Origin: a bacterium
GTDB lineage: Bacteria; UBP18; UBA7526
Assembly (NCBI GenBank): GCA_030615855.1
Contig: JAUWYL010000004.1
Span: 1 to 59,100, forward strand
DNA: 59,100 nucleotides
Direction of reading: 5' to 3'
The position numbers and the translations under genes were made by a program. The notes below the pieces were generated by a model. The model had not been told where the DNA came from. It ran no database searches and saw nothing but the letters and a program-made list of their open reading frames with translations. Position 1 is the first letter of the stretch. Every line of letters starts with the position of its first letter. Positions 938 to 18,341 of the stretch are shown one piece after another.

Positions 938-966
938 ATTATAACATATATGAATTTTTTTGTCAA
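938..966 (-). promoter_or_regulatory. sigma-70 promoter of mscS
   Basis: On the minus strand a perfect TTGACA (966-961) is followed by a 17-nt spacer and a perfect TATAAT (943-938). It lies about 70 nt upstream of the mscS ATG. Its -35 box abuts the terminator of the preceding gene. Confidence 0.9.
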
Positions 967-1004
967 AAACCCCCGAGCGTATTAAGAAACGATCGGGGGT
1001 TTTT
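965..1004 (-). terminator. rho-independent terminator (bidirectional sequence)
   Basis: AAAAACCCCCGA pairs with TCGGGGGTTTTT across a 16-nt loop. This gives a GC-rich stem flanked by A and T runs. It closes the transcript of the repeat-protein gene at 1103-1693. Confidence 0.85.
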
Positions 1005-1011
1005 AATCTTT

Positions 1012-1034
1012 AATCACAGATTTGATCTGTGATT
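1012..1034. repeat. perfect 10-bp inverted repeat
   Basis: AATCACAGAT and ATCTGTGATT flank a 3-nt loop, downstream of the 22-mer repeat gene. The wording resembles the ACACGGATT-type dispersed repeats elsewhere in the window. It could also act as an extra transcript 3' stem. Confidence 0.6.
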
Positions 1035-1102
1035 TCACTATTACGCCCTGACCGCAATTTTACCCCAAAAGTAACAAGGTTCTTGACGAAGTCAAGGCGT
1101 CC

Positions 1103-1693
1103 TTATTCCGATTTCTTCTCTTCCTTAAAGGGCTCCTTGATAACCTCCTTAGCTCCTGCGATAGTACCCCTTAAGGTATCCCTAACCTTTCTGCCCATTT
1201 CAGCGCCAATAGTTCCCGCAGCCTCAATAGCTCCCTCAATACTATCCTTGGTAACCTTGGCTACATCACCACCAACTTCTCTGGTAGTCTCGATGGCTGC
1301 TTGCACTGCCGTTTTGGCCGCTTCTACCACATCGCCTCCTACCTCAGAGACGCCATTCACCACGCCCTTTACCGCCTCTCTGGCTGTGCTACCAATCTCA
1401 CCACCAACCTCTGCTGCTCCCTTAATGACCCCGACCACTGTTTGCCGCGCGGTCTCGGTAACATTGCGGCCGGTCTCCTTTCCTGCTTTAATAGTACTGA
1501 TCACTGTCTCTTTAGCCACATTAATAATCTCTTGTCCCATATTACCTGTTCCTCTTACTGCAGAAACCAGGGTCTTGCTTACGACGTTGACCAGCTCCAC
1601 CGTTACCTCACCCGCTCCTTTAACCGCAGTCACTAAGGCCTCCTTGATATCGGAGACAATCCTGGTTATCAAACCTTTCCTCTCTTCTTCCAT
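1103..1693 (-). CDS. amphipathic 22-residue-repeat protein (LEA/apolipoprotein-like)
   Basis: After 19 leading residues the 196-aa protein is built of eight consecutive units of 22 residues, the last degenerate. Examples are VVGVIKGAAEVGGEIGSTAR and VKGVVNGVSEVGGDVVEAAK. Hydrophobic residues recur with an 11/22 spacing and alternate with Lys/Glu, which predicts a long amphipathic helix. There is no signal peptide, Cys or catalytic motif. Such 11/22-mer proteins bind lipid surfaces or protect against stress (apolipoproteins, LEA proteins), but a function here is inference. It is monocistronic, with its own promoter, Shine-Dalgarno AAAAGGAGG and terminator, suggesting high expression. The 228-aa plus-strand ORF across it is a shadow. 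Confidence 0.8.
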   Translation of the reverse strand: MEEERKGLITRIVSDIKEALVTAVKGAGEVTVELVNVVSKTLVSAVRGTGNMGQEIINVAKETVISTIKAGKETGRNVTETARQTVVGVIKGAAEVGGEIGSTAREAVKGVVNGVSEVGGDVVEAAKTAVQAAIETTREVGGDVAKVTKDSIEGAIEAAGTIGAEMGRKVRDTLRGTIAGAKEVIKEPFKEEKKSE

Positions 1694-1764
1694 AGTTATC
1701 CTCCTTTTACCCTAAAATTTTTCCGTACTACAATCGCTCTTTTTCTCACCTCCTTTTCAAGGAT

Positions 1765-2618: not shown

Positions 2619-3938
2619 TTAGAATTTATATTTAAACCCCGTGGAGATCAGATGCTTTGTGGTGTCCCTTCTCTGGGGAGAGGGATGATCATAGTTCTTG
2701 ACCAATAGTTCATACTTTGCCTTCAGGGTCAGATCTTTGGTTACCTTACCACTCCAGGAGAGACGGAGGATATTCTGATGATTATCCCGGGAAGGGTCTC
2801 TTAGATAGTCCTGATTCTTATGGGTATACTTTATTAGATAAAGGGTGGCCACCCTTGGTCGGAACCGGAACTCTATAGATGGGGAGAGCACCCGATAATC
2901 GTTTACCTCCACATTCTCATAGTCCTTATCCTTAATGGTTATTAGTCCCTTAAGAGTAATCTTCTTTGTCGCTTTAACCTTGAGGCCTGGGGTATAATAC
3001 TGGGCTATGGAATCCTTATTCCGGTCAACAGAATAATAGTAATCCTTATCATCGAATTTATACTTGAAGAAGGGCTCATATTTCTTGCTAATGGGCTGGG
3101 TATACTTTATATAACCCTTGTGGAACCGATAGGCATCCCCCTCTTCCTCTGTCTCCTGAAAGGGGATGTCCTCGTCTAAGGAGGTGGCCCTATGTCCTCT
3201 GGTAAGGCTTAAGTCAATGATAGGCAGAAAGGTCTTTTTCTTGTGGTATTTAAAGCCTGCGGTGAGAGACTCCTTCCAGAAGTCCTTTCTCTGGGGAGCG
3301 GTGTGTTTATAATCCTTATATAATGCCCGGGCCCTTCCTTTTAAAATCAAACAATCGATGAATCCCTTCCTGGCAGAGAGAGCAAAGATATGTAGCTGAT
3401 TATCCTTAACAGGGTTATTGGGAAAGTCCTGATGTTTATAACTATACTTTAGACTATAACTTTCCTTTGGCCTGGGCTTTATTCCTAGTTCTATGGAAGG
3501 AGAGAGGGTGAGGTTATCATCTATACCGCCATGGGTATAGTTCTTGTCTTTTATTTCTAACTTTAATTTCAAAGTATAGATATCGGTTAATTTATACTTC
3601 AGGCTGGGAATGAGGTAGTGGGCGTGGCTATCTCTGTTTCTATTTGGGCCACTATAATCCCTTATAAAGTATTTATACTTGAAAGAGGTCTCTCCCCTCT
3701 TGAATGGCTGGATAATCTTTAGATAGCCCTTATCATACCGATAGACTAAGTCCTCATTCTCCCGGCCCAAAAGATCGACATCCTCATCCAGGTCAGTGAA
3801 CCTATACCCTCTCTCAAAGCCCCCACTCACTGTAGGTTTTTTCTTTTCTTCTGCCCAGGCCTTACCAGAAAAGACAACAATTAAACTAAGGATTACTGGG
3901 AGGATAGCGACATTCTTCATATTGCTAAATTCTATCAT
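2619..3938 (-). CDS. outer-membrane beta-barrel-like protein with internal duplication
   Basis: The 439-aa product starts with a signal peptide ending in AWA before EEKKK. It then shows many alternating, aromatic-rich strands and ends in KYKF, the terminal Phe typical of outer-membrane barrels. The chain is a two-fold repeat: the first half (KGYLKIIQPF, RNRDSHAHY, LSPSIELGIKPRP, KHQDF, PQRKD) is mirrored in the second (KGYIKYTQPI, RNKDSIAQY, LSPSIEFRFRPR, KNQDY, PQRRD). I do not recognise a named family. It lies just past the terminator of the cobalamin operon. AAGGA precedes the ATG. Confidence 0.7.
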   Translation of the reverse strand: MIEFSNMKNVAILPVILSLIVVFSGKAWAEEKKKPTVSGGFERGYRFTDLDEDVDLLGRENEDLVYRYDKGYLKIIQPFKRGETSFKYKYFIRDYSGPNRNRDSHAHYLIPSLKYKLTDIYTLKLKLEIKDKNYTHGGIDDNLTLSPSIELGIKPRPKESYSLKYSYKHQDFPNNPVKDNQLHIFALSARKGFIDCLILKGRARALYKDYKHTAPQRKDFWKESLTAGFKYHKKKTFLPIIDLSLTRGHRATSLDEDIPFQETEEEGDAYRFHKGYIKYTQPISKKYEPFFKYKFDDKDYYYSVDRNKDSIAQYYTPGLKVKATKKITLKGLITIKDKDYENVEVNDYRVLSPSIEFRFRPRVATLYLIKYTHKNQDYLRDPSRDNHQNILRLSWSGKVTKDLTLKAKYELLVKNYDHPSPQRRDTTKHLISTGFKYKF

Positions 3939-3999: not shown

Positions 4000-5073
4000 T
4001 TAAAGGATTTTAGAGAGGGAGTTAATTAAACGAAGGCTTTTCTTGCGAGTTCTTACTGCGATACGGATGTATTTATTATTTAAGGAGTGAAAGAAGGAGC
4101 AGTCTCGAATGAGAATATGCTTCTGGATCAGTTCCTCTCGAAGTTTTTTAGAGCCCATTCTATCGGTCAATCGGCAGAGTATAAAGTTGGTGACTGAGGG
4201 ATAGGGTTTCAGGCCATCGATTTTAGATAATCCATGATAGAGAAACTTTCTCTCTTTCGAGACAAGGCTCTTTGTTTTTTTAATATATTCTTTATCTTTC
4301 AGGGCCGCTATTCCTGCTATCTGAGCAAGGGCATTGACGCTCCAGTATTCCTTATGAATCTTCATCCTTTTTAGAAGATCCTTATTCCCTATTCCATAAC
4401 CAATCCTTATTCCGGGAAGGGCAAAGAATTTTGTTAAAGATTTGATTATAAACAAATTATTCTTTTTAACTGCTTCCTGAATTAAAGTCTCTTCTTTTTC
4501 ATTTTCAACGAAGTCCATGAATACCTCGTCTACGACAACAAAAATTCTCTTTTTTCGGGCGATGCCGATTATCTTCAGTAGGTCGGCTTTATTTATAAGT
4601 TGGCCCGTGGGATTGTTTGGATTGCATAAGAAAAGCAAATCCATTTTATCCAAATCTTTCAATAATTTTTCTACATCTAACCTAAAGTTGTCTTTGAATT
4701 TTAAGGGGAAAAACCGTATCCTACATCCCACGCTTTTTAAGGCAAATTCATACTCGCTAAAAGTGGGAACCACGATTAATGCTCTCTTTGGCCTAAGAGT
4801 GCGGCAGATGAGATAGATAAGTTCTACTGCCCCATTTCCGGCAATAACATTTGCTGGACTAACCTTTAGATATTTAGAGAGTTCTTTTCTTAGATTTATT
4901 GTCTCCGGGTCAGGATAACGAGCAATTCTATCTAAATTTTCTTTCAAGGCTTTGATTACTCTTGGAGAAGGACCTAGAGGATTGATATTGGCACTGAAGT
5001 CTATTATCTTCTCTTCTCTTAATCCATATTGTCTGGCAATCTCTTCTACATTCCCCCCGTGAACATGTTTCAT
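4000..5073 (-). CDS. cobD: threonine-phosphate decarboxylase (cobalamin aminopropanol arm)
   Basis: The 357-aa PLP-dependent fold-type I protein begins HGGNVEEIARQYG and continues DFSANINPLGPSP, the usual start of CobD. Later come NPNNPTG (residues 151-157), the PLP-binding Asp in VVVDEVF (about 182) and the Schiff-base Lys in SLTKFFALPGIRIGY (about 215). It resembles HisC, but the context decides: PduX and CbiB are encoded directly upstream. It converts L-threonine phosphate to (R)-1-amino-2-propanol phosphate, which CbiB attaches to cobyric acid. AGGGAG precedes the ATG. It is the last gene of the operon. Confidence 0.92.
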   Translation of the reverse strand: MKHVHGGNVEEIARQYGLREEKIIDFSANINPLGPSPRVIKALKENLDRIARYPDPETINLRKELSKYLKVSPANVIAGNGAVELIYLICRTLRPKRALIVVPTFSEYEFALKSVGCRIRFFPLKFKDNFRLDVEKLLKDLDKMDLLFLCNPNNPTGQLINKADLLKIIGIARKKRIFVVVDEVFMDFVENEKEETLIQEAVKKNNLFIIKSLTKFFALPGIRIGYGIGNKDLLKRMKIHKEYWSVNALAQIAGIAALKDKEYIKKTKSLVSKERKFLYHGLSKIDGLKPYPSVTNFILCRLTDRMGSKKLREELIQKHILIRDCSFFHSLNNKYIRIAVRTRKKSLRLINSLSKIL

Positions 5074-5089
5074 TTTCTCTCCCTATCAT

Positions 5090-5129
5090 TTGTTGCACTC
5101 GTTGTCCGATCGGACACAACTTGCAACAA
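5090..5129. repeat. 40-bp dyad upstream of cobD
   Basis: TTGTTGCA plus TGTCCGA on one side mirror TCGGACA plus TGCAACAA on the other. Arms are 20 nt with five mismatched central positions. It sits 17 nt upstream of the cobD ATG, in the pduX-cobD gap. It could be an operator, an mRNA stem or another palindromic repeat. Confidence 0.6.
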
Positions 5130-5263
5130 TTTACTCTATCCTCTTCTAAAAAATATCCTGCAGTATCGGAACTCGAATAAAAACCACGAGATTAATGCAG
5201 ATTAACACAGAGAAAGTTTTCAAAATCTTGTGAGAATCTGGTGAAAATCTGTGGTTTTAGTGA

Positions 5264-6187
5264 TTATTTTGAGATTATTTGTAAGCCATCGTTCACTATT
5301 TTTGTTTTGTAGAAAACTTTGCCAATTCCCCTGCCCTGTAAGGAGTTCTTCAGTTCTTTAAAATCGACTTCATTTGGTTCAGCCAGAATGCCTACTACGG
5401 TTCCGCTGTGGGCGATGTTTATTCCTAAAGCCCCGGCCTCTTGGGAGATCTCCCATATTCTATCAAGAGCAGGCTTATAGAGGATTCTCTGGTTACTGAA
5501 GGCGCTAATCGTTGCTCCTTTGGCAATCGATCTTGGATTCTTTCCCTTTATCCCTTCTTCCACTAACTTTAAGGCTTCTTTTATTTCTCCTTCTCTCTGC
5601 CGATTGATTTCAGTCAAATCCTTCTTATTGAACTCTAAGGTATCAACTCTCCCCCCCAGATCGATAACAAGTATCTCCATATCTGGTGCTTTCCCTAAGA
5701 ATTTGAAGAGGGCGCCGTTTCTATGATCGAAGATGGTTATTCCTTCAAATAAGGTTCCATCCGTGGGCTCGATGGATAGGGCAATCTTAGCAATTTCTTG
5801 GAGAGATATCTCTTTGCGTTTTTCAGTTTCAGCCTGAGGCTGATCCGCCTTTGGCGGAAAATTTTGCGCTTTGGCGGTTGCAAGAGAGGTGGCTCCAATG
5901 TCTGCGGTAGAAGAAGCCATTCCCTTCCCCAAAGGTATTTTAGAATCAATCTCAAAATTCGCTCCAAGATTTTCTTTGCCGAAGAATTTTAAAGTCTTTT
6001 TAATTGCTTCTCTCGTCTTCCACTTATCAGGAGGGCCAATTATCTTACCCCTGTCATTCAAGACAATTCTCACCTGTGAATATAGATTTATGGGGCAAGA
6101 GATATGAAAACTTTCTCCATTGAGCGTTCCCTGAACCAATTCCCCGCAGGAGCCAGGTGCCTTTGCTATACCTATGAGAGAAGCCAT
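5264..6187 (-). CDS. pduX: L-threonine kinase, PduX-type GHMP kinase
   Basis: The 307-aa GHMP-family kinase starts with a substrate loop (APGSCGELVQG) and has the ATP-binding motif PLGKGMASSTADIGA (85-99). PduX phosphorylates L-threonine, the substrate of CobD encoded next. Residues about 105-126 (KAQNFPPKADQPQAETEKRK) come from an inserted repeat with a perfect CCGCC-TTT-GGCGG palindrome; a related copy without that palindrome lies after rpmB. The ATG overlaps the end of cbiB by 16 nt, implying translational coupling. Confidence 0.9.
   Translation of the reverse strand: MASLIGIAKAPGSCGELVQGTLNGESFHISCPINLYSQVRIVLNDRGKIIGPPDKWKTREAIKKTLKFFGKENLGANFEIDSKIPLGKGMASSTADIGATSLATAKAQNFPPKADQPQAETEKRKEISLQEIAKIALSIEPTDGTLFEGITIFDHRNGALFKFLGKAPDMEILVIDLGGRVDTLEFNKKDLTEINRQREGEIKEALKLVEEGIKGKNPRSIAKGATISAFSNQRILYKPALDRIWEISQEAGALGINIAHSGTVVGILAEPNEVDFKELKNSLQGRGIGKVFYKTKIVNDGLQIISK
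5813..5881. repeat. composite dispersed repeat inside pduX
   Basis: On the minus strand this reads GCAACCGCC...CGCAAAATTTT, a CCGCC/GGCGG palindrome, then CTGAAAAACGCAAA. The outer parts reappear on the plus strand at 51584-51622 (GCAACCGCCGAGACGCAAAA and CTGAAAAACGCAAA) without the central palindrome. Confidence 0.8.
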
Positions 6188-7134
6188 CTAACAAAAACCC
6201 CCAAGATTAGAGTGAGAACAGATGTTAGATACATTAGATTGCTGGATTCTTTGATATGGATTGGAGAAAGTTTTCTTTTGGGGCTGCCTAAATATGGCTT
6301 TACCGTCTTTTTGCCCCGATAATAATTTACTCCACCCAATCTAATCCGCAGGGCTCCAGCCATCGCCCCCTGGGGAAGAGCGGCATTTGGGCTATGATAC
6401 TTGCTTCCGTCTCTAAACATAACATGGAAGGCACTCCTCCCATCTTTCCTAAACAAGAACGCTCCCAGTGAGATCAATACCCCTCCTAAGCGAGCAGGAA
6501 TGTAGTTAGCGATATCATCTAATTTCGCTCCTGCCCAACCAAAGTCCTTATATTTTTTGTTTTGATACCCAATCATGGAGTCTAAAGTATTTATCGCTTT
6601 ATAAGCAAAGGCCAAGGGAACACCGCCTAAGAAGAGATAGCATAGAGGAGCTACTACACCGTCTATGGTGCTCTCTGCTATAGACTCCACTACCCCTCGA
6701 ATTATTCCCTTTTTCCTTAGATCTTTAGTATCCCTTCCTACAATTTGAGAAAGTCTCTTCCGGGCCGACTTAAGGTTCTTCTTCGCTAATGCTTGATAGA
6801 CCCTTTCTCCTCCCTGAGCAAGTCCTCTTATAGAAAGAGTGGTAAAAGCGCCCCAGATGGTCACAATTAAACCCAGAACGGGGTGCAGCTCATAGGCTAT
6901 TTTAATAACTGTCCAGGCAATTAAGAAACTTCCTCCCACAACAATAACCGCTAAAATAACCCCGGCAATCTTTTTACGATTTAATTCTTTGCCGTAAACG
7001 GTAAACCGTAAACTGTAAACCTTTCTTTCCAAAAATGAAATGGCTTTTCCCATCCAAACCACAGGATGGCCCAGCCACTCGGGATCCCCCAAGGTTAAAT
7101 CCATGATATAGGCGATAACATATTCCAAGCCCAC
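6172..7134 (-). CDS. cbiB: adenosylcobinamide-phosphate synthase, CbiB
   Basis: The 320-aa membrane protein has the family's DLTLGDPEWLGHPVVWMG start, four to five hydrophobic segments, the GDPEW-type motif and the conserved region SKYHSPNAALPQGAMAGAL. It joins aminopropanol phosphate to cobyric acid at the membrane. The start is a GTG preceded by AAGGAG at good spacing. Residues about 38-49 (KVYSLRFTVYGK) are encoded by four heptamers (GTAAACx), which likely lengthen a variable loop. It lies between tonB and pduX in the riboswitch operon. Confidence 0.95.
   Translation of the reverse strand: MGLEYVIAYIMDLTLGDPEWLGHPVVWMGKAISFLERKVYSLRFTVYGKELNRKKIAGVILAVIVVGGSFLIAWTVIKIAYELHPVLGLIVTIWGAFTTLSIRGLAQGGERVYQALAKKNLKSARKRLSQIVGRDTKDLRKKGIIRGVVESIAESTIDGVVAPLCYLFLGGVPLAFAYKAINTLDSMIGYQNKKYKDFGWAGAKLDDIANYIPARLGGVLISLGAFLFRKDGRSAFHVMFRDGSKYHSPNAALPQGAMAGALRIRLGGVNYYRGKKTVKPYLGSPKRKLSPIHIKESSNLMYLTSVLTLILGVFVRWLLS
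6991..7021. repeat. heptamer tract inside cbiB
   Basis: Four consecutive 7-bp units of the form GTAAACN lie in frame within cbiB. The same family occurs intergenically at 25107-25137 and 51307-51322. Confidence 0.85.
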
Positions 7135-7143
7135 GGTAACTCC

Positions 7144-7737
7144 TTACTTTAAAGTAAAGACAAGGGAGACTTCCATCTGGAGAGAGGAACTGGCTATTTC
7201 CTTTGGATGGGGTGGGAAGGGGGAGGCTCTTTTTATGGTAGCGATTGCTTCCTGGTCTAAAATTTTAGATCCTGAGGAACGTATTAATTTAATCTCTTGA
7301 CCCTTACCATTAGCTAAAATTACGAATTCAAGATGGGCAATCCCTTCAATACCTTGCTTCTTCGCCCACTCAGGATATCTTTTCACCTCTTCTATTTTCT
7401 GTTTGACCATATCCTGATAGCGGAGCATGGCTTCGTCGGCTGGGTTTAAGACCTCCACTCTTTCTGTGACCGGCTGGGGACTTACTTCTTCTAATGCTAC
7501 CTCCTTAGCCTGTTTTTCAGGCTCTGCTTTCTCTATTACTTCTTTTATCTTCTTTTCCTCACCCATCCTCTCTATTTTAGGTAGAAGTGAAGGTTTCTCT
7601 ATCTCTATCTGGAGAGTAAGTTCTTTGGGCTTCTCAAGCTTGGGCGAGTTGATATTAAATGAGGGCATACCTAAAAAGAAACCATGGCTAATAAGGGAAA
7701 TTATAAATGTAGTTCTAATTACTCTATCTTTTAACAT
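7144..7737 (-). CDS. tonB: TonB energy-transducing protein
   Basis: The 197-aa protein has one N-terminal membrane helix (TTFIISLISHGFFLG), a Pro/Glu/Lys-rich periplasmic spacer, and a C-terminal TonB domain (about 110-197) with YPEWAKKQGIEG and an AIKRASPFPPHP-like end. It links the ExbBD proton motor to the outer-membrane receptor BtuB. Its start overlaps exbD by 14 nt. Being in a cobalamin-riboswitch operon suggests dedication to corrinoid uptake. Confidence 0.93.
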   Translation of the reverse strand: MLKDRVIRTTFIISLISHGFFLGMPSFNINSPKLEKPKELTLQIEIEKPSLLPKIERMGEEKKIKEVIEKAEPEKQAKEVALEEVSPQPVTERVEVLNPADEAMLRYQDMVKQKIEEVKRYPEWAKKQGIEGIAHLEFVILANGKGQEIKLIRSSGSKILDQEAIATIKRASPFPPHPKEIASSSLQMEVSLVFTLK

Positions 7738-8137
7738 CTTCTTCTAATTTAGTAGAGATTATTAACCTCTCGGCCTCAGCCTGTCTGGCAAGGTCCATAA
7801 CCTTAACCGCCAAGCCTAAGTCTATCTTCTCGTCAGCCTTGATAATTACGGTCTTCTTCTCGGTCTTTACTATCTCCATCTTTAATTGCTTAAGAAGGTT
7901 TTCTAAGGTTACCAGTTTTTCATTTAGATATAGGTTACTATCTTCTGTGATAGAGATAATAATATCTTCCTCGGCATGTAGTTTGGCAGTAGCCGCAGAA
8001 GGAAGGGTAATCTTTATCCCTGGTTGAGTAACAAAATGAGAAGAGAGCATGAAGAAAATCAGAAGGAGAAAGACGACATCTATTAAGGGAGCGATATTGA
8101 GGCGAGTGCTAACTCTTCTTCGTCCTTCAAATTCCAT
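7724..8137 (-). CDS. exbD: ExbD/TolR biopolymer transport protein
   Basis: The 137-aa protein is of family length. It has a single N-terminal membrane helix with the proton-pathway Asp in LIDVVFLLLIFFML and a periplasmic C-terminal domain (VVIKADEKIDLGLAVKVMD). It works with ExbB as the proton-driven motor for TonB. Its start overlaps the exbB end by 11 nt. The TolQR pair is similar, but the position beside tonB and btuB favours ExbD. Confidence 0.93.
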   Translation of the reverse strand: MEFEGRRRVSTRLNIAPLIDVVFLLLIFFMLSSHFVTQPGIKITLPSAATAKLHAEEDIIISITEDSNLYLNEKLVTLENLLKQLKMEIVKTEKKTVIIKADEKIDLGLAVKVMDLARQAEAERLIISTKLEEDVKR

Positions 8138-8783
8138 AGTTCTTATTCCCTTTTATCTTTTTCGCTTCGACTGGAACTGATTTTGTTCCTAGGAACTCGA
8201 GGAGTTCTGATGCTACCTCTTTCATCCAAGAAGACATATTGTCAATCTTGCCTTCAAAATAGTGATAGGCAACCAAGGTAGGTATAGCCACAGTCAACCC
8301 GGCGGCAGTGGTAAGAAGTGCTTCCCAGATACCACCAGCAAGCACACTGGCATCTACTCTGCCGCCCAATTCCTGGATCTTTACAAAGGCCTTAATCATC
8401 CCCACAACAGTGCCCAAAAGACCTATGAGGGGAGTGATGTTGCCAATAGTAGCCAGGCCTCTTAGATGCTTTTCTAAACCCCTCACTTCCCAGGAGCCCA
8501 CGCGAGAGATTGATTTTTCCTGGACCGCAGCATCTTTTTTATGGTTCTGAATGCCACAGGCCAAGATGCGTGCTATTGGGGCTCGGGTTTTTTGACACAG
8601 GTCCAGGGCCTCTCTAACCTTCTTTTTTTGGAGAAGATTTCTTATGGATGCGAAAAACTCAGGAATATTTATCCTTATTTGATGGAAGTGATAGAGTCTT
8701 TCCAGAATAACGGCTACGGATATTACCGAACAGAGAAGAATGGGCCACATCAAGACCCCACCTTTTACCATAATGTCAAACAT
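8127..8783 (-). CDS. exbB: ExbB/MotA/TolQ proton channel protein
   Basis: The 218-aa protein has an N-terminal helix (GGVLMWPILLCSVISVAVILERL), a cytoplasmic stretch with RGLEKHLRGLATIGNITPLIGLLGTVVGMIKAF, and a last helix (GIWEALLTTAAGLTVAIPTLVAYHYF). This is the ExbB/TolQ fold. It forms the stator with ExbD. GGAAAGGAGG precedes the ATG. It follows btuB after a 217-nt gap that holds a palindromic repeat. Confidence 0.93.
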   Translation of the reverse strand: MFDIMVKGGVLMWPILLCSVISVAVILERLYHFHQIRINIPEFFASIRNLLQKKKVREALDLCQKTRAPIARILACGIQNHKKDAAVQEKSISRVGSWEVRGLEKHLRGLATIGNITPLIGLLGTVVGMIKAFVKIQELGGRVDASVLAGGIWEALLTTAAGLTVAIPTLVAYHYFEGKIDNMSSWMKEVASELLEFLGTKSVPVEAKKIKGNKNYGI

Positions 8784-8944
8784 AATACAGCCTCCTTTCC
8801 ATTTGAGTTAGGTAAGTTGAGTATGCTGAATTGGGGAATCGGTGAAGCGGCGAATCGGAGACTATTTTTCGTTCCCCGTGTCACCGTTTCACCCTTTCCC
8901 CGTTTCTTGAAATCTGCGGTCATTGCTTGATATTCATGCTCTCT

Positions 8945-8967
8945 CGGATGCCAGCGAAGCGCATCCG
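8945..8967. repeat. REP-like palindrome between btuB and exbB
   Basis: CGGATGC and GCATCCG flank a 9-nt loop containing the complement of CTTCG. A close relative with the same core (GGATGC..CTTCG..GCATCC) lies at 23077-23099. Confidence 0.75.
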
Positions 8968-9000
8968 GCATCTGCGTTTTGATCTGCGATTATCTGCGTC

Positions 9001-10902
9001 TTAGAACTTTATCTTCATTCCCACTATCCCCGTCCTTCGGGGCATGGGATAGTGCTCTCTCATCTCATAGTTGGTATTGAAAACGTTGTTAATCCCAGCA
9101 AACCAGGTGAAATACTTCTTAGTGTATTCTACCCTGAGGTTGGTCAGGAAATAACGAGGGAGTTCTCTTGCTTTTGTATTGGCTTTATTAACGAAGCGAG
9201 AGTCAACGAACTCCTCTTCTATCCGAGCAAGAAGCCCAAATTTAGACTTATACTCTAAGTAGGCATTGGCCTTATGTATCGGCAGATAGGTAAGATGGTT
9301 GTTGTAATTAACTCCTACTGTCTTATTCCTCGTCTCTAACCAGGTATAGCCTATGCCACTTGATAAATACTTGCCCATCTTGGCCTTCAGTTCTGATTCT
9401 ATCCCCCAGATTAAGGCTTTTTCTACGTTCGTCGGATTCCAGGTGTTGTCTCCATCCTCATCCGCCCAAATGATGAGGTCTTCCACTTCCCTTCTGAAGA
9501 AGGTCAGTTTTCCTAATAGATTCTTGGTGAAAACCTGGTCTATTCCCCCTTCATAGGCCCAGGCCTTCTCTGGCTTCAAATCAGGGTTTCCTACCCCCAT
9601 CCCAGGATCATTGGCATAGAGGTCAGATAGGGTAGGGGCCCGGAAGGCTTTCCCTCCAGAGGCCCTCAAGGTAGTCTTCTTCGTCACCTTATAGAGGATG
9701 CTTGCTTTAGGAGAGCCCTCTGTGCCAAAGGCCGGATGGTAATCCCATCTGCTTCCTATGGTAAAGGTTAGAGGCTTGCATATCTTTATCTCATCCTGAA
9801 TCCAATAGGCCTGGGTGGTCAGATCATGCTTAATATCCGGTCTCACCCCCGATTGTATAGAGTCTAACCCATCCTCATGAAGGTCAGTCCCAAGAGTAAT
9901 CTTATTTCTCTTCCCAATCTCTATGGAGTACTCTGCCTCCCCTCCCAAGACATCCATTCTATGAAAGGAGGGCGCTTTGGTATGGGTGATATTTTTTAAT
10001 TTCTCTTCCCTTCCGTAGGCCTTCAAAGAGAGGTTGGATCGCTCACCTAACTTTGCTTTCCATCCCAGGCTTCCCCAAACCCGGTGCTTATGATTTCTAT
10101 CGTCATAATCCGGCGTAGTTTTCTTATCCGGATTTCCATGCTCCCCATTATAGTATCCACCCTCAAGGATGAATTTTGACCAACCAGCCAGATCATAAGT
10201 CAATTTTCCAAAGATGGCATGGGCGTCATAATCGCTGTTAGGCCGATGTCCCTGGGATTGATACTGCCCACCAGAGAGGAGGTAGCCAAACTTCTTTATC
10301 TTTGCCCCATGGGCAAACTTATTAATGAAGGTATTATGCGTAGCATAGGATGTTTCATAACTAAAGGTAGGCTTCTTGGGCGGCTTCTTGGTAATGATAT
10401 TTATCACCCCACCCATGGCACCCGAGCCATAAAGAGCAGATCCCGGACCTCTCACCACTTCTACTCTTTCAATATGTTCCAGAAGAGGGAATTCGCCAAA
10501 ATCTACATAGCCATATTGGATACAGTTCATCCTCTGACCATCGATCAAGACCAAAACCTGTTTCGATGAAGAACCACGCATACTCACCGTGGTAGAAGCC
10601 CCCATGGCTCCGTAACTATCTACCTTAACCCCGGTCTCCCTCTCTATTACTTCTCCGATGTTTCTCGCTCCACTCTTTGCAATCTCTTCTTTGGTAATGA
10701 TGGTAGTGTGGAGAGATACATCTCCCAGGAGTTTGGGGGTTCTGGTGGGAGTGATAACTACCTCTCCTAAGTCAAAGATTTCTTCCTGCCTGCCCTCAGC
10801 CGCGTAGGCAGGAGTGAACAGTGAACAGTGAACAGTGAACAGTGAAGCCAGGATGCCGCTTAGTGCTGATAATAAAACTATTAAACCTCTTTTCCCTTTC
10901 AT
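9001..10902 (-). CDS. btuB: TonB-dependent corrinoid receptor, BtuB-like
   Basis: The 633-aa protein has a signal peptide, a TonB-box-like EVVITPTRT, a plug domain (about 60-165, with VLVLIDGQRMN and GALYGSGAMGGVINIITKKP) and a 22-strand-type barrel ending in IVGMKIKF. A cobalamin riboswitch directly upstream fixes the likely substrate as corrinoids. Residues about 20-40 of the leader, including the predicted AYA cleavage site, are encoded by a palindrome plus a 7-bp tandem array. RBS GAGGAGG lies next to a small hairpin that may mediate translational control. Confidence 0.93.
   Translation of the reverse strand: MKGKRGLIVLLSALSGILASLFTVHCSLFTPAYAAEGRQEEIFDLGEVVITPTRTPKLLGDVSLHTTIITKEEIAKSGARNIGEVIERETGVKVDSYGAMGASTTVSMRGSSSKQVLVLIDGQRMNCIQYGYVDFGEFPLLEHIERVEVVRGPGSALYGSGAMGGVINIITKKPPKKPTFSYETSYATHNTFINKFAHGAKIKKFGYLLSGGQYQSQGHRPNSDYDAHAIFGKLTYDLAGWSKFILEGGYYNGEHGNPDKKTTPDYDDRNHKHRVWGSLGWKAKLGERSNLSLKAYGREEKLKNITHTKAPSFHRMDVLGGEAEYSIEIGKRNKITLGTDLHEDGLDSIQSGVRPDIKHDLTTQAYWIQDEIKICKPLTFTIGSRWDYHPAFGTEGSPKASILYKVTKKTTLRASGGKAFRAPTLSDLYANDPGMGVGNPDLKPEKAWAYEGGIDQVFTKNLLGKLTFFRREVEDLIIWADEDGDNTWNPTNVEKALIWGIESELKAKMGKYLSSGIGYTWLETRNKTVGVNYNNHLTYLPIHKANAYLEYKSKFGLLARIEEEFVDSRFVNKANTKARELPRYFLTNLRVEYTKKYFTWFAGINNVFNTNYEMREHYPMPRRTGIVGMKIKF
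10785..10846. repeat. palindrome plus GTGAACA heptamer array in btuB leader
   Basis: CCTGCCTGCC pairs with GGCAGG (10785-10812) and is followed at once by 4.7 perfect tandem copies of the 7-mer GTGAACA (10814-10846). All of it lies in the signal-peptide coding region in an open frame. A degenerate copy of the same heptamer array is intergenic at 37880-37922. Confidence 0.9.
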
Positions 10903-10912
10903 TTCTTACCTC

Positions 10913-10929
10913 CTCTTCCCTCCGAAGAG
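10913..10929 (-). promoter_or_regulatory. possible SD-adjacent hairpin of the btuB riboswitch
   Basis: In the mRNA, CUCUUC and GAAGAG pair around a GGAGG loop, and the 3' arm runs into the Shine-Dalgarno GAGGAGG. No T-run terminator separates aptamer and gene, so control at translation is the likely mode. This is inference from layout. Confidence 0.45.
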
Positions 10930-10943
10930 AGATAACGTTTTTG

Positions 10944-11120
10944 GTAGATAGCCAGGTCTCCTGACTTCCCGCACCTTTGGTTAACCTTCCCTCCCGATTC
11001 AAATCGAGAAGTGGTATTATTGCTCTAAAGCATATACCAAAGGCGCAACCTTCTAAAAAGATGCGGATTACAGTGGCGGGGCCATTCCGGATTTTAACCG
11101 GATTCCCTTAGGCTATCTAC
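10944..11120 (-). promoter_or_regulatory. cobalamin riboswitch (btuB leader)
   Basis: The minus-strand transcript has a perfect 10-bp closing stem (GUAGAUAGCC/GGCUAUCUAC), the GGGAAUCCGGU element, the B12-box core GCCCCGCCACUGUAAUCC and the 3' element GUCAGGAGACCUGGC. The class is unmistakable. It controls btuB-exbBD-tonB-cbiB-pduX-cobD. The aptamer is nearly the same as that at 20089-20267. Confidence 0.96.
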
Positions 11121-11207
11121 TCTTTTCCTTCACCTCCTCTCCATACACGGATTTCCTTTTACTGCCTATTGTTAATGCATATTTGACACGGATTATCGCA
11201 GATAAAA

Positions 11208-12008
11208 TCAAACTTGTTTTCTTTTATTCCTACCAGATACTAAGAAGACGTGGGGCTTGAAAGAAACCGGGCTTTTTTCTACTACTACTAATGTTTTATA
11301 AACCTTCTCGATATTCTGATAGGTTAGAATCTCTTGAGGTGAACCCTCCTGAAATACTCTCCCCTCTTTTAAGAGGATTAGTCTCTCACAATACTCTGCT
11401 GCTAAGTTGAGATCATGGGATACCATGAGAACGGTCAAATTTCTCTTCTGGTTCAAGTTCTTAATCAGATTTAGGATCTCTACCTGATGATTGATGTCTA
11501 AATGGGCGGTTGGTTCATCAAGGAGGAGGATCTCCGGCTCCTGGGCTAAGGCCTGAGCAATTACCGTCCTCTGCCTCTCCCCTCCGCTTAAATCCTCCAA
11601 ATTCCTCTCCTCCAATCCTAAGGTGTCTGTCTCCTCCATAACCCCTCGAACTACTTTTAAATCCTCTTCGCTTTCTAATAGTTGGAATCTTCTCAAGTAG
11701 GGGGTGCGACCTAAGAGAATAAAATCTCTTACAGAATAAGAAAAGAAGAGTTCCTGCATCCTCTGAGGAACAATAGCCATCCTCTTGGCTAATTCCCTAT
11801 ATTTAATCTCATCTAACCCTCTTTCCTCTAAAGTCACCCTTCCCTTCCAGGGCTTGAGTATCTTACTGATTACTCTTAGAAGAGTCGTCTTGCCGCTTCC
11901 ATTGGGCCCGATCACCCCTAAAAAATCTCCCTTTTTAATGGTAAAGCTAATATCATTCAGGATGGCTTTTGTATTATATCCTGTGGTCACTTTCTCTAAT
12001 TTGAGCAT
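11208..12008 (-). CDS. btuD: corrinoid ABC transporter ATPase
   Basis: The 266-aa ATPase carries Walker A GPNGSGKTT, the signature LSGGERQR, Walker B EILLLDEPTAHLD and a switch His (VSHD), in FecE/BtuD order. It powers BtuC-mediated import. It begins immediately after btuC and closes the cobU operon, with the second riboswitch following. The family also covers siderophore importers; the operon indicates corrinoids. Confidence 0.92.
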   Translation of the reverse strand: MLKLEKVTTGYNTKAILNDISFTIKKGDFLGVIGPNGSGKTTLLRVISKILKPWKGRVTLEERGLDEIKYRELAKRMAIVPQRMQELFFSYSVRDFILLGRTPYLRRFQLLESEEDLKVVRGVMEETDTLGLEERNLEDLSGGERQRTVIAQALAQEPEILLLDEPTAHLDINHQVEILNLIKNLNQKRNLTVLMVSHDLNLAAEYCERLILLKEGRVFQEGSPQEILTYQNIEKVYKTLVVVEKSPVSFKPHVFLVSGRNKRKQV

Positions 12009-12009
12009 C

Positions 12010-13005
12010 TCATTTCCCCAACTTTAGTCTCTTCTTGGTAAGAAAATAGATGAAGAGCGAGCCACCAAGAATCCCAGTAATTACTCCCACGGGGAGTTCC
12101 AGGGGAGAGATGATAGTTCTCGCTAAGGTATCGCTGGCGATTAGAAATATCCCTCCTGCCAGACAGGAAGTAGGAAGGAGGATCCTATGGTCTGGACCGA
12201 CGAAGAGGCGCATGAAGTGAGGAACAAGTAATCCTACAAAACCGATTATTCCCGATACCGAGACCGCTACTCCAGCGATTAAAGAACCTAAGATGAATAG
12301 GGTTCTCTTCGTCCTTTCAATATTTACTCCCAGATGCAGGGCCTCCTCCTCTCCTAAAGATAGGACATTCAGGTCCCGACTAAAAAGGAAAGAGATGGCT
12401 ATTCCGACCAAGATAATGAGTGAGACTAACTTTATAAGGGGAAAATTGGACTCTTCCAGGCTCCCCATAATCCAGAATAATATTCCGTGCAATTGATGTT
12501 CCCGAGATAAGGACATGATGAGAAGGATGATGGCAGAGGCAATGAAGCTTATCATCACCCCGGTCAGTAAGAGCATAGATATTCTAAGATATCCTTGCCT
12601 CCGGGCAATGAAATAGACCAGGGAAACGGCTCCCAGGGCTCCCAGGAATCCCGCTAAGGGGAGGATTCTGAAGCCAGCAATAATGGATAAGCTTACTCCT
12701 AAGGCCGCTCCCCCAGAGACCCCTAAGGTATAGGGCGAAACTAAGGGATTCCTAAACATCCCCTGGAAAATGACCCCGGTAACACTTAAAGCTCCGCCCA
12801 CAATCAGGGCTAAAATAATACGTGGGAGCCGGATATCAAAGAGAATAGAATATTCAATGCTTTTCTCTCCAGAAATAATCAAGGGAATAATCTTTTTAAA
12901 AGGAATCCCGGCTGAGCCCATGCTTAAAGAGAATAGTCCCACAACTAAAAGGAGCCCCATCAAGGCCAATATCCAGATAATCCAGCGGATCAATTTCTTA
13001 TCCAT
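12010..13005 (-). CDS. btuC: corrinoid ABC transporter permease
   Basis: The 331-aa permease of the FecCD/BtuC family has about ten membrane segments. Family marks include DIRLPRIILALIVGGALSVTG, the GMFRNPLVSPYTLGVSGGAALG stretch and the ATPase-contact region IGFVGLLVPHFMRLFVGPDHR. It forms the inner-membrane channel with BtuD. It overlaps btuR by 8 nt. Confidence 0.93.
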   Translation of the reverse strand: MDKKLIRWIIWILALMGLLLVVGLFSLSMGSAGIPFKKIIPLIISGEKSIEYSILFDIRLPRIILALIVGGALSVTGVIFQGMFRNPLVSPYTLGVSGGAALGVSLSIIAGFRILPLAGFLGALGAVSLVYFIARRQGYLRISMLLLTGVMISFIASAIILLIMSLSREHQLHGILFWIMGSLEESNFPLIKLVSLIILVGIAISFLFSRDLNVLSLGEEEALHLGVNIERTKRTLFILGSLIAGVAVSVSGIIGFVGLLVPHFMRLFVGPDHRILLPTSCLAGGIFLIASDTLARTIISPLELPVGVITGILGGSLFIYFLTKKRLKLGK

Positions 13006-13522
13006 CTATTCCTTTCCGTTCTTTTATTCCTTGATCAAAAGGATGTTTAATTTTTCTTATTTCGCTTACTAAATCAGCCCTTTCAATCAGCCACTGCGGT
13101 GCTCCTCTTCCAGTGAAAACGATCTCCAGCCCTTCGGGTTTCTTTTCCAGGAATCTCAAGATCTCCTTTTTCCCAAGATAACCTTCCCGCAAAACAATGT
13201 TCATTTCGTCAAGGATGAGCAAATCGTAATCCTTTTGGAATGTTCCTTCGATGAAAGAAAGTGCCTTCAAACACTTCTTTCTCCCTTTCTCAAAGCCCAT
13301 CTTCTTGTAAGAATGGAGTTTTACAGGAATAAGATCATGGACCTCAATGCCCAGTCTTTTTAAAACCTTGCCCTGTCCTTGTTCGAAGATATCCCGGGGT
13401 TTAAAGAAAGTAATAAAACAAACCTTAAAGTTATAGGCAATAGCCCGAACAGCTAACCCCAGGCTGGCGGTAGTCTTTCCCTTACCATTCCCGTAGTAGA
13501 CCTCAATCAGCCCTTTCTCCAT
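12998..13522 (-). CDS. btuR: cob(I)yrinic acid a,c-diamide adenosyltransferase (CobA/CobO/BtuR)
   Basis: The 174-aa protein opens with YYGNGKGKTTASLGLAVRAI, the modified P-loop of the CobA/BtuR type, and keeps DLLILDEMNIVLREGYL and FTGRGAP. It transfers 5'-deoxyadenosine from ATP to Co(I) corrinoids, which commits imported corrinoids to salvage. It starts 1 nt after the btuF stop. Length is close to that of E. coli BtuR. Confidence 0.94.
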   Translation of the reverse strand: MEKGLIEVYYGNGKGKTTASLGLAVRAIAYNFKVCFITFFKPRDIFEQGQGKVLKRLGIEVHDLIPVKLHSYKKMGFEKGRKKCLKALSFIEGTFQKDYDLLILDEMNIVLREGYLGKKEILRFLEKKPEGLEIVFTGRGAPQWLIERADLVSEIRKIKHPFDQGIKERKGIDG

Positions 13523-13523
13523 C

Positions 13524-14372
13524 TCAATCCCCTTTCTTTGGGTGAAGGAATTCCGCTATCTCCTCCAGGGCCTCAACGAAACTTACCGGTGTGGGACTAC
13601 AGGTCTTATTAGAATCAATGATATATATTCTGTCATTCTTGACTGCATCCAGGGTCTTAAACTTCCTCCAAACTTTTTTCTCTTCTTCGCCCACAATGCC
13701 CATGGTTACGATGATAATTACTTCAGGGTTTTGCCTGATAACATCTTCCCGGCTGTAAAGTCCACTCTTCGCTCCGCGAGCAATGTTTATCCCGCCGCCG
13801 AGAGCGATGAGATCTTGAATAAACGAATCTTTGATTATCGTAAATAATGGCCTTGCTCCTATCTGAACGAAAACTTTTGGCTTGGGCAGGCCTTTAATCC
13901 CTTTACTGATGGAATCTATCTTATTTTTCATCTGGCAAACTATCTCTTCCGCTTCAGCTTCTCTTCCAACAATCCTCCCTAATTCCATAAACTGCTCACA
14001 GATCTGGGAAAAATTCTTGTTCTCATAGAGGGGGAAAGAAATGACCCTCATGCCCAGAGATTTCAGTTTTTCAATCTGCCCAGGATCGGTTAAAGATGTA
14101 GCCAGTATTAAATCTGGTTTGAGAATCAGTATCTTTTCCAGGTCCACTTTAATTACTGTGCCCACCTTTTCTTTTTCCTTAGCTTCAGGGGGGCGGTCGC
14201 AATATACGGTTGTGCCCACAATTCTATCCTCCATTTCCAAGAGATAGAGTTCTTCAGTTATGGCGGGACTTAAGGAGACAATCCTCTGGGGCGATTCACC
14301 TCTTGTTTGTGAGATTAGGAGAAGAGAAATAGATAAAATTAGGATTAAAATACTTATCCCCTTAATTTTCAC
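13524..14372 (-). CDS. btuF: corrinoid-binding periplasmic protein
   Basis: The 282-aa protein has an N-terminal signal sequence (ISILILILSISLLLIS) and a two-lobed type III binding fold with RIVSLSPAITEELYLLEMEDRIVGTT and LEKILILKPDLILATS. This is the BtuF/FhuD pattern. It hands corrinoid to BtuCD. No lipobox Cys is visible, so it is probably soluble in the periplasm. It sits between the radical SAM gene and btuR. Confidence 0.92.
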   Translation of the reverse strand: MKIKGISILILILSISLLLISQTRGESPQRIVSLSPAITEELYLLEMEDRIVGTTVYCDRPPEAKEKEKVGTVIKVDLEKILILKPDLILATSLTDPGQIEKLKSLGMRVISFPLYENKNFSQICEQFMELGRIVGREAEAEEIVCQMKNKIDSISKGIKGLPKPKVFVQIGARPLFTIIKDSFIQDLIALGGGINIARGAKSGLYSREDVIRQNPEVIIIVTMGIVGEEEKKVWRKFKTLDAVKNDRIYIIDSNKTCSPTPVSFVEALEEIAEFLHPKKGD

Positions 14373-14384
14373 TTTAAGTCTCCA

Positions 14385-15245
14385 TTAGGAGGTTAGAATC
14401 TGGTTCATGGTGAGATACTGCATATCCCAGTCCTTGATAATCAATTTAGATATTTCATCGATTCTCTTAAAATCCTCTAATAGCTCATCTGAGCGAACCT
14501 CTATACACTTATAGGGATCGGGCTTATAGGCAGTGTTAGTGGTATAAAATTCGACATGGTCTAAGTAGCTTCTGGCAACATTGAAGGCCTTTAACATCTT
14601 CTTTTCGGTCGGTCTTCTTTTTGAAATGTTATTCTTCACATATTCGGGTGAGAATTGGTATATTTTATAAGTTATACCTTTATTAATCTTACTTAAAAAT
14701 CTTGCTATCTCTTCAATCTCACCAAAGTCTATGACGTCTGGAATGAATATTGTTCGCACATAAAAATTTAGACCATATCTATTTAATATCTCTACCGCTT
14801 TTAATACCTTAGCATTGCTTTCACCAGTGTACCATTTATGAATTTTATCGTGGTATGCTTTCAGGTCTAATTTAATATAATTCACATCTAAAGACCTTAG
14901 CTCTTTAACTAAGTCTTTACCGAGCAGATGGCCATTGGTTGAGATACCAATTTTACTCACCTGGAGTTCTCTTAATTGGCGGATTAGAGAAAGTAGGTAA
15001 TCGGTATTCATCGTTGGCTCGCCACCTGTAAATTGAACATCCTCGATCATTTCGCCATAGATGAACTGGCAAGACTTAATAAGTAGATTGAGAAGTTCCT
15101 CAACTGACAGGGCTCTGCCCACTTCTTGCTTGGCGATGGCAAAGCATCCTCGGCAATCAAAATTACAGCCGGATAGATTGATCTTCACTTTTCTCTTGGG
15201 GCTTACCACAAATGTTAAGAATGGCACTCTTCTGCATAAGGTCAT
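14385..15245 (-). CDS. radical SAM protein in the cobalamin operon
   Basis: The 286-aa protein has the cluster motif CNFDCRGC (CX3CX2C) near residue 27, then QFTGGEPTMN, the SAM-binding GGE motif, and a TIM-barrel-like body. It resembles PFL-activating-enzyme-type radical SAM proteins in size. No auxiliary cluster motif or B12-binding domain is obvious. It abuts cbiZ (stop/start adjacent) and precedes btuF, so it is co-transcribed with salvage genes. Substrate unknown; a corrinoid-linked role is inference from context. Confidence 0.82.
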   Translation of the reverse strand: MTLCRRVPFLTFVVSPKRKVKINLSGCNFDCRGCFAIAKQEVGRALSVEELLNLLIKSCQFIYGEMIEDVQFTGGEPTMNTDYLLSLIRQLRELQVSKIGISTNGHLLGKDLVKELRSLDVNYIKLDLKAYHDKIHKWYTGESNAKVLKAVEILNRYGLNFYVRTIFIPDVIDFGEIEEIARFLSKINKGITYKIYQFSPEYVKNNISKRRPTEKKMLKAFNVARSYLDHVEFYTTNTAYKPDPYKCIEVRSDELLEDFKRIDEISKLIIKDWDMQYLTMNQILTS

Positions 15246-15977
15246 TTAGTACCTTCCATTTTGTTTCAAAATGGCTTCCTTTACAGCAGAGGTCACCGCT
15301 CTCGCCATCAATTCTCCGGCCTTAGTATGCCCACCCACATAGCTTATTCTTGGGCCATTGCCTGATACGATTACAATATTATCGGTTCCTGTGCCCGTGG
15401 CCTGAATTTCAGGACTATACGAACTCCTTATATCCATATCTTGGAAGGCTATTACTTTGGACTCAGTTATAGTAATTATGCTTCTCGACATGGCACCATC
15501 CGTGAGTGATGCATTGGTCAAAACTATTATATTGACGGTACCGAGGCGCTCGAATTTGCCTTCCTCCTTCTCCACACTTCCCGCTTTGTCTACTCCCACC
15601 CTCTGGGCGTTAGATTTCGCTCCCGCGGTAACGCAGGCATAGACCCTGAAGTCTTCGTATTCTTCCCTCTTGATGGAAAGGTTATCCATATCTGCGCCCG
15701 TAAACAACATGGCTACATCACCGGGCTCGAGTTTTAAATCAGCACAGATTCTTTCCTCATATTCCTTCCTATTTTGATGAACGAAGTCCCAGAGCTCAGG
15801 GGGATTGTAGTGATTAGCCACGTATCGCACTTTCTTAAATCCTTCCAAGGTGCTCAAGGCCTTTCTTCTCTCGGCAAAGAAGATGAGAAAGGTTTTTACT
15901 TCAGTCTCTTTAAAGCGATGATAGATTATCTGCGCTTTTATATCTTCCAAATCCAAAACAATCTCTTTACTTCTCAT
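15246..15977 (-). CDS. cbiZ: adenosylcobinamide amidohydrolase, CbiZ
   Basis: The 243-aa protein shows CbiZ family marks: VYACVTAGAKSNAQRVG, NIIVLTNASLTDGAMSRSIITITE and the TGTGTDNIVIVSG motif. CbiZ removes the aminopropanol side chain from adenosylcobinamide to give adenosylcobyric acid. CbiB plus PduX/CobD can then re-derivatise that product. This route is best known in archaea and some bacteria. It overlaps the PP-loop gene by 11 nt. Confidence 0.93.
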   Translation of the reverse strand: MRSKEIVLDLEDIKAQIIYHRFKETEVKTFLIFFAERRKALSTLEGFKKVRYVANHYNPPELWDFVHQNRKEYEERICADLKLEPGDVAMLFTGADMDNLSIKREEYEDFRVYACVTAGAKSNAQRVGVDKAGSVEKEEGKFERLGTVNIIVLTNASLTDGAMSRSIITITESKVIAFQDMDIRSSYSPEIQATGTGTDNIVIVSGNGPRISYVGGHTKAGELMARAVTSAVKEAILKQNGRY

Positions 15978-16632
15978 TTTTAGGGATAACCTCCAAGAAC
16001 CAATGTTTGTTTTTAAACACTTTTCTGCCGGTTGTAAACTTTACAGGCTCTCTAAAAATTGGCTCATCAAAGACAAAGGTATGGTATTCACCTTTCTCTC
16101 CACAGAGATCGATATTGCCTAATCTCTTCAGGTCTTTTATGAATTCTTCATCTATTCTACGGCCCAGCCACTCTTTGCCTAATAAATCAGCCTTAGTGGC
16201 TACCACAATGGCTTTGAAACCAGCTCGGATAAATTCTTTCAGTAATCTCTCCCGATCTTTTCCCCATAAAGGTAATACTGGTTTAATTTCTATCTCTCTA
16301 CAAACTCTTTCTATCCAATCCCGGTGTTCCTGAAGGTCGATATCACCGAAAATACCTATCTCAACACCCTCCTTTTTCAACTCTGAAACTGTTCTTTTAA
16401 ACACCTTTTCATAACTTTCCCAAGTAGTCTTCCTTTGGATGATGGGGATGCCCATGGCATCCGATTGGGCCCTCAAAAGAGCTGAGCTAAGTCCGTGGGA
16501 GCGAGAACGTTTACCATCCTCTGATACCATATTTACAAGATATTCGACCTTAAGGTTCTTGTTCTGCATCGCTCTATAACAGGCTAAAGATGTTTCCTTG
16601 CCTCCACTCCAGGAAACAAATGCCTTTTCCAT
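15967..16632 (-). CDS. Dph6-like PP-loop ATP-pyrophosphatase (COG2102/MJ0570 type)
   Basis: The 221-aa protein starts with the PP-loop FVSWSGGKETSLACYRAM and has GIFGDIDLQEHRDW and CGEKGEYHTFVFD, the marks of the diphthine-ammonia-ligase-related family. Eukaryotic Dph6 adenylates a carboxylate and amidates it with ammonia. Bacteria lack diphthamide, so another acid must be the substrate. Encoded between an AsnB-like protein and CbiZ, it may amidate or adenylate a corrinoid or its linker; this is inference. Confidence 0.85.
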   Translation of the reverse strand: MEKAFVSWSGGKETSLACYRAMQNKNLKVEYLVNMVSEDGKRSRSHGLSSALLRAQSDAMGIPIIQRKTTWESYEKVFKRTVSELKKEGVEIGIFGDIDLQEHRDWIERVCREIEIKPVLPLWGKDRERLLKEFIRAGFKAIVVATKADLLGKEWLGRRIDEEFIKDLKRLGNIDLCGEKGEYHTFVFDEPIFREPVKFTTGRKVFKNKHWFLEVIPKNEK

Positions 16633-17592: not shown

Positions 17593-18341
17593 AGAATTCC
17601 CTTGGTGAGATTAAAAAGTAAGAAAAGAATGAATAGGGTTCCCACTTCAATTATCTCGTTTACTGCTCCTAGGGTATCACCCGTCATTCCTCCAATCCTT
17701 TTAGAAATAAATCTCGTCAAAAGAAGGGTCAGAGCTAGAATGAAGAGGAATAGTTCCAGGCCCAAGATCTTTAAGAAACCTCCAGTAATTATTAAGGCAA
17801 TTAAACTGGCAACAATTAGCTCTTTTCTTCCACAATAATCAAGAAACGCCTTTCCTGTTCCTTTCTTCCGAGCATAAATAGATAAAGAAGAAGCGACCAC
17901 CATAGCCCATCTTCCCATAACAGGAAAGAGAAGTAGGGCCCCCCTCTTTATTTCTAAAGGCATCTCGTGGAGCAGGACTAACTTGAGCATTATTAAAGAG
18001 ACTACTCCCACTATGCCAAAAGCGCCCACCCGGCTATCCCTCATAATTTTTAGAATCTCTTCCTTCGTTTTTCCTCCAGAGAGTCCATCAATAGTATCGA
18101 TAAAGCCATCGATATGTAAGGCCCCGGTTAGAATGATTAAAGCAATGATAGTTAAGGCATCTGCTACTAAGGGAGCTAAAAGAATAGAGAATCCCCAGTT
18201 GACTAGAACTAAAATCCCACCTAAAATCAATCCCACAATCGGGAAATAGGCCATGGACTTTCCCAGTCTCTTCTCATCTTTAGGATATTTACCCACAGGA
18301 ACTCGAGTTAAAAATCGAAGAGCGATTAACAAATTTATCAT
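17589..18341 (-). CDS. cobS: adenosylcobinamide-GDP ribazoletransferase, CobS
   Basis: The 250-aa integral membrane protein begins LIALRFLTRVPVGKYP, typical of CobS. It has GALHIDGFIDTIDGLSGGKTKEEILKIMRDSRVGAFG, the metal-binding CDP-alcohol-transferase-like motif, and about six membrane segments. It joins alpha-ribazole (phosphate) to cobinamide-GDP. It has 4-nt overlaps with cobT upstream and the AsnB-like gene downstream. Confidence 0.95.
   Translation of the reverse strand: MINLLIALRFLTRVPVGKYPKDEKRLGKSMAYFPIVGLILGGILVLVNWGFSILLAPLVADALTIIALIILTGALHIDGFIDTIDGLSGGKTKEEILKIMRDSRVGAFGIVGVVSLIMLKLVLLHEMPLEIKRGALLLFPVMGRWAMVVASSLSIYARKKGTGKAFLDYCGRKELIVASLIALIITGGFLKILGLELFLFILALTLLLTRFISKRIGGMTGDTLGAVNEIIEVGTLFILFLLFNLTKGIL

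Follow-up and report, generated by a model that had tools for sequence, protein, structure and literature searches.

Repeats of 11, 22 and 33 residues are typical of 3-11 lipid-binding helices (PMC6164224). The closest described systems are the 11-mer region of the perilipins, especially that of Plin4 with its 33-mers (PMC5889406, PMC8064757), the synucleins, and the 22-mers of the apolipoprotein A-I type (PF01442). Here we analysed a small repeat protein encoded in a window of 59,100 nucleotides (the whole of the DNA studied; contig JAUWYL010000004.1, positions 1 to 59,100) from a UBP18 bacterium. Like the perilipins and synucleins, the protein is built from gapless repeats whose length is a multiple of 11 and has the character of a 3-11 amphipathic helix, and like the Plin4 helix (PMC5889406) it is rich in Val, Thr and Gly and poor in aromatic residues, with similar hydrophobic and charged fractions. 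It differs from them in being bacterial, in its 22-residue unit with a predicted glycine break, in having no PAT domain or 4-helix bundle, and in matching no profile. With apolipoprotein A-I it shares tandem 22-residue amphipathic helices, one per unit, but its units end in glycine rather than proline and contain far fewer Leu and aromatic residues.

Bacterial phasins (PF09361) and lipid-droplet proteins such as MLDS of Rhodococcus (PMC5504291) are likewise small, stand-alone amphipathic helical proteins; the Phasin_2 match of the repeat protein, however, lies below the cut-off, and the six UBP18 genomes yielded no PHA synthase. The designed helical repeats DHR4 and DHR7 resemble its predicted helix-turn array (TM-score 0.52-0.63), but their cores are formed by Leu and Ala, whereas the repeat protein is based on Val, Gly and Thr. 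Hendecad coiled coils have the same 11/3 hydrophobic periodicity, while the repeat protein is glycine-punctuated, with a broad hydrophobic face and a unit of 22 rather than 11 residues. Helix-repeat proteins of this general kind are already known, and the present one lies outside every named family tested on its sequence.

Gene organization and transcription

The repeat protein (196 aa) is encoded on the minus strand at positions 1103-1693, with the ATG at 1693, and consists of eight 22-residue amphipathic helix repeats and short charged ends. It has no evident signal peptide or transmembrane segment (maximum 19-residue Kyte-Doolittle mean, 1.26). A ribosome-binding site, AAAGGAGG (1700-1707, minus), lies 6 nt 5' of the ATG. 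The next upstream gene encodes a PRK04334 (UPF0280-type) protein (1790-2563, minus), and the next downstream gene an MscS-family mechanosensitive channel (46-867, minus), which is also adjacent in G003, a genome of the same family.

The preliminary description placed the gene under a strong consensus promoter, which overstates the case. The promoter-like site of the gene, TTGACT-17-TATAGT with the TG of an extended -10 element (1765-1793, minus), is a consensus match only, at 10 of 12 positions; such sites are common by chance (15 seen versus about 7.6 expected per 4.5 kb), and this one is absent in the G003 orthologue. The perfect 12/12 promoter, TTGACA-17-TATAAT with TG (938-966, minus), serves the downstream MscS gene, not the repeat gene. 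The terminator named in the same description was confirmed as an intrinsic hairpin followed by a T tract at 963-1006 (minus; about -25 kcal/mol, z = -6.8), and its T tract overlaps the -35 box of the MscS promoter. Since the terminator is strong and MscS has a separate perfect promoter, the repeat gene is a transcription unit of its own in the window. In G003, which lacks the promoter, 13 bp separate the repeat gene from an upstream gene for a PF05552 membrane protein, and the two are probably co-transcribed.

Repeat architecture and composition

Residues 11-186 (1136-1663, minus) split into eight gapless 22-mers, in agreement with the eight-fold amphipathic repeat first described. The consensus of the unit is roughly E-[IV]-x-x-x-[AV]-[KR]-[ED]-[TA]-V-x-G-[AV]-I-[KE]-G-A-x-E-V-G-[GA], with glycine at the unit boundary. 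BLOSUM autocorrelation against shuffled sequences gave z = 12.9 at lag 22, 8.9 at lag 44 and 8.8 at lag 66, and a weak signal at lag 11 (z = 2.2). This makes the unit a true 22-mer and not a duplicated 11-mer; hydrophobicity alone follows the period of 11. The earlier reading of the unit as 2 x 11 thus survives for the helix and not for the sequence: the hydrophobic moment over the 176 residues peaks at 98-98.5 degrees (98.2 for an 11/3 helix), and its value of 0.384 lies above the maximum of 2000 shuffles (0.303). Among 55 non-redundant ORFs of the window, high 22-periodicity was found only in the antisense frame at 1029-1715 (plus; z = 6.2), which the longest-ORF filter had retained in place of the repeat gene itself. 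The repeats share 23-34 of 66 bases with each other, which points to an old array rather than a recent tandem expansion.

Hydrophobicity keeps its 11/3 period from one end of the repeats to the other, with hydrophobic positions spaced 4+4+3. This pattern would also suit a hendecad (11-residue) coiled coil, a homo-oligomeric rod in which several chains pack their long helices against each other. We consider such a rod unlikely, given the broad hydrophobic face (65-196 degrees), the in-helix glycines fixed at unit positions 12, 16 and 21, and the helix break that AlphaFold2 places at every unit.

The composition (fractions of 0.39 hydrophobic, 0.005 aromatic and 0.30 charged residues, with a mean moment of 0.37-0.38) is within the range of known 3-11 lipid-binding helices and unlike that of LEA proteins, and so leans towards lipid. 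The corresponding values are 0.47, 0.02, 0.24 and 0.30 for alpha-synuclein, 0.37, 0.01, 0.23 and 0.35 for Plin3, and 0.40, 0.065, 0.35 and 0.39 for apoA-I (PMC5889406, Table 1). No Pfam or NCBIfam family matched the protein above the cut-off. Among lipid-binding families, the best Pfam match below it was Senescence (20.3 bits versus a cut-off of 24.6), and Phasin_2 (PF09361; 15 versus 24.9) and ApoLp-III (13.9 versus 36.3) also fell short; the Pfam matches at E<=1 included neither PF01442 (Apolipoprotein A1/A4/E) nor any perilipin, synuclein or LEA profile. The likeness to apolipoprotein helices claimed at the outset accordingly holds for the 22-residue amphipathic units, their 3-11 character and their composition, but not for membership in PF01442.

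The claimed closeness to LEA 11-mers did not stand. A protectant of the LEA type against desiccation or stress, which would lack structure in water and become helical when dried, might be expected to be a repetitive helix former rich in Gly, Thr, Lys and Glu with no other domain, as this protein is. However, the protein is no hydrophilin: its GRAVY is about -0.1, and its normalised mean hydropathy of 0.49 is on the folded side of the Uversky boundary. Together with the missing LEA match, this makes such a role highly improbable. PHROGs tape-measure profiles (1e-6 to 1e-3) and a PDB tape-measure match (0.0097) were read as shared amphipathic composition, and a phage tape-measure origin was rejected; no relative was found on viral contigs or on plasmids.

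Predicted structure

From two sequences, AlphaFold2 predicts eight helices, each about 18 residues long and interrupted where the glycine-rich ends of the units fall (pLDDT 77.7, pTM 0.74); over residues about 100-170 the pLDDT exceeds 90. The single-sequence model has identical breaks at lower confidence. The model can be read as a compact helical array or as flexible helices that would lie on lipid and were packed together because the model offers them no lipid surface.

The compact array corresponds to the main rival of a lipid-binding role, a soluble alpha-helical repeat in which every 22-mer contributes one helix followed by a glycine turn. Packed against one another by their hydrophobic sides, the eight helices would then form a compact solenoid or bundle that serves as a protein-binding scaffold. 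The pTM, the well-predicted segment and breaks located exactly at the unit boundaries, even from one sequence, are consistent with it, and so are the best PDB fold matches, the designed helical repeats DHR4 (TM 0.63) and DHR7 (TM 0.52), and a copy number and repeat order fixed between phyla. On the other hand, 2.6% Leu, almost no aromatic residues, 13% Gly (12.8%) and 15% Val would make a poor packed helical core. The models also disagree, with mean pLDDT from 77.7 down to 41.4 on an input of only two sequences, the best fold matches include no natural solved structure, and a length difference of 33 residues in distant relatives equals 1.5 units. We regard a packed scaffold as possible but rather doubtful. 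A folded repeat built on 22-residue units, if that is what the protein is, would give the designed helical repeats a natural counterpart.

Homologues and selection

The named genome collection gave a single relative, L009, from bacterium UBP18_UBA7526. Within the phylum, sampled by six genomes, the gene is present in two, that of the window (G000) and G003; the orthologue in the second UBP18 genome is 85% identical. In G001 the locus is intact and the gene is missing, with the UPF0280-type gene and MscS 68 bp apart. The gene was not found in G002, G004 or G005, where its absence is uncertain: in G002 and G005 the contig that carries MscS stops at this place, and G004 has no MscS match. The assembly of the window contains a second C-terminal MscS piece at a contig end (G000:C41:2-331, L008), 88% identical to the gene at 46-867 and followed by a TrkA_C gene; by eye it is nearer to the G001 sequence, and the bin may mix two close species.

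A homologue in G368, a genome of another small phylum, has the same eight repeats in the same order, and the alignment across them is gap-free (E 3e-25, 35% identity). It scores 90.5 bits against the UBP18 profile. When its residues were shuffled within each of the 22 columns, the score was 68.5 +/- 7.6 bits, and 7 of 500 shuffles reached the real score; shuffles within 11-mer positions gave at most 53 bits and full shuffles at most 3. Thus, most of the score reflects the shared 22-mer motif, and a significant part reflects repeat-by-repeat correspondence. In-order pairing of the repeats gave 307 against a permutation mean of 210, a value reached by 20 of 40,320 permutations. To judge from these alignments, the UBP18 and G368 proteins likely descend from a common ancestor with eight repeats; independent amplification of a similar unit is a less probable alternative.

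Strong matches were confined to three genomes among those searched, so the protein is rare. Weaker matches, with E of about 1e-5 to 1e-8 and lengths of 163-207 aa, came from six genomes, all belonging to one family (f287) of the G196 phylum, which, from gene content, is probably Cyanobacteriota; the profile-profile probability with these relatives is 93%. In two of them (L030 and L032), 33 additional residues (3 x 11) stand at one and the same position, which would fit a need for length changes to preserve the 11/3 helix register. First-look matches to an apolipoprotein-like protein in G196 and a YtxH protein in G044 were set aside as probably convergent, and two further phylum searches returned no match. 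A separate 11-mer repeat family was seen at L034 (1093-1875) and L035 (1486-2199), whose proteins combine an EF-hand-like start with a long 11-residue repeat, G-K-G-I-x-x-A/G-x-K-A (z11 about 9-10), and adjoin a SAM-radical-like gene.

Between the window gene and L009, dN is 0.079 and dS 0.59 (Nei-Gojobori), close to the values for MscS (0.078/0.80). The ratio of about 0.13 indicates purifying selection on a functional protein. Identity to the orthologue is 92.5% at hydrophobic-face positions and 81% at polar-face positions.

Genomic neighbourhood and a possible membrane coat

Inner-membrane transport genes neighbour the repeat gene in all three genomes with strong matches. In G003, it lies 13 bp after the gene for the PF05552 mechanosensitive-type membrane protein and before the genes for MscS and a TrkA_C protein; in G368, it has an HMA_2 gene on one side and a P-type cation ATPase gene on the other, across gaps of 44 and 68 bp. 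The G196-phylum relatives are surrounded by different genes. Since the partner gene varies between genomes, these neighbours point to a shared location rather than a shared complex. A specific accessory subunit of the adjoining channel or transporter would account for MscS beside the gene in both UBP18 carriers and the P-type ATPase beside it in G368, but the partner is not the same between phyla, the window gene ends in a strong terminator ahead of an MscS gene with its own perfect promoter, and G001 keeps MscS without the repeat gene; we judge such a subunit very unlikely.

The full cluster in G368 (L013, 3117-7916) reads DUF5132, HMA_2, 22-mer protein, HMA_2-type P-type ATPase and metK, and G196 has DUF5132, the ATPase and metK in the same order without the 22-mer gene. 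A ferrosome-like operon (DUF5132, HMA_2 and P-type ATPase) was considered for G368 and dropped, as other DUF5132 loci (G052, G327 and G196) have no adjacent 22-mer gene; that FezC is a DUF4405 cytochrome (PMC10979944) also counts against this assignment. No HMA_2 was found in the genome of the window organism itself.

The reading that we tentatively favour, at slightly less than an even chance, is a cytosolic peripheral coat on the cytoplasmic membrane that acts like the 3-11 helix proteins. The protein would be soluble and cytosolic, with nothing but eight amphipathic 18-residue helices joined by glycine hinges. The helices would lie flat against the cytosolic side of the cytoplasmic membrane, or against some other lipid surface, and would coat or stabilise it peripherally after the manner of the 3-11 repeats of alpha-synuclein, the perilipins and the apolipoprotein 22-mers. 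We infer lipid binding, this location and a role in stabilising or organising the membrane under osmotic or ionic stress from several features: a moment peak outside all shuffles with a composition like those of synuclein, Plin3 and apoA-I, the transport neighbours in three genomes, predicted helices broken at the repeat boundaries, a 33-residue length difference in distant relatives that keeps the helix register, and the low dN/dS. Other features count against a coat. No lipid-binding family profile matched above the cut-off; the compact AlphaFold2 array would bury the hydrophobic face; the intact G001 locus without the gene indicates that MscS does not need the repeat protein; the relatives in the phylum of G196 have different neighbours; and a net charge near zero (-2) would exert no strong electrostatic pull to an anionic membrane.

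Of the surfaces suggested in the preliminary description, coating a membrane is plausible, while coating of PHA storage bodies finds no support: PHA synthase (PhaC_N) was not found in six UBP18 genomes, only one of them at least 90% complete, in a search that matched only Caulobacter among 14 control genomes. A WS/DGAT search matched nowhere and has no bearing either way. A broader proposal, that an unnamed bacterial family of glycine-punctuated 22-mers in UBP18, a second small phylum and, distantly, the phylum of G196 coats the cytoplasmic membrane beside mechanosensitive and cation-transport proteins, as a counterpart in mechanism of the synuclein and perilipin coats that is not tied to storage lipid, seems distinctly doubtful to us. 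A membrane coat, if real, would offer a very small and regular bacterial model for the recognition of lipid surfaces by weakly hydrophobic 3-11 helices, and this in a cell in which no PHA synthase was found. Either reading, coat or folded repeat, is modest in scope, as the protein is rare and has no link to a known pathway.

Two further features of the window were observed upstream of the repeat gene. The gene at 2619-3938 (minus) encodes a 439-aa protein that begins with a signal-like segment and whose two halves share 42% identity (E 8e-45); it matches nothing in Pfam or NCBIfam, looks like a beta-rich outer-membrane protein born by duplication, and is missing from the matching place in G001. 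Positions 4000-19926 (minus) hold a large co-oriented cluster that, as read from its ORF translations, would serve cobalamin salvage and uptake, with a CobD-like aminotransferase, a GHMP kinase, a CbiB-like protein, TonB/ExbB/ExbD, BtuF/C/D-like ABC genes and CobS/CobT/CobU-like genes.
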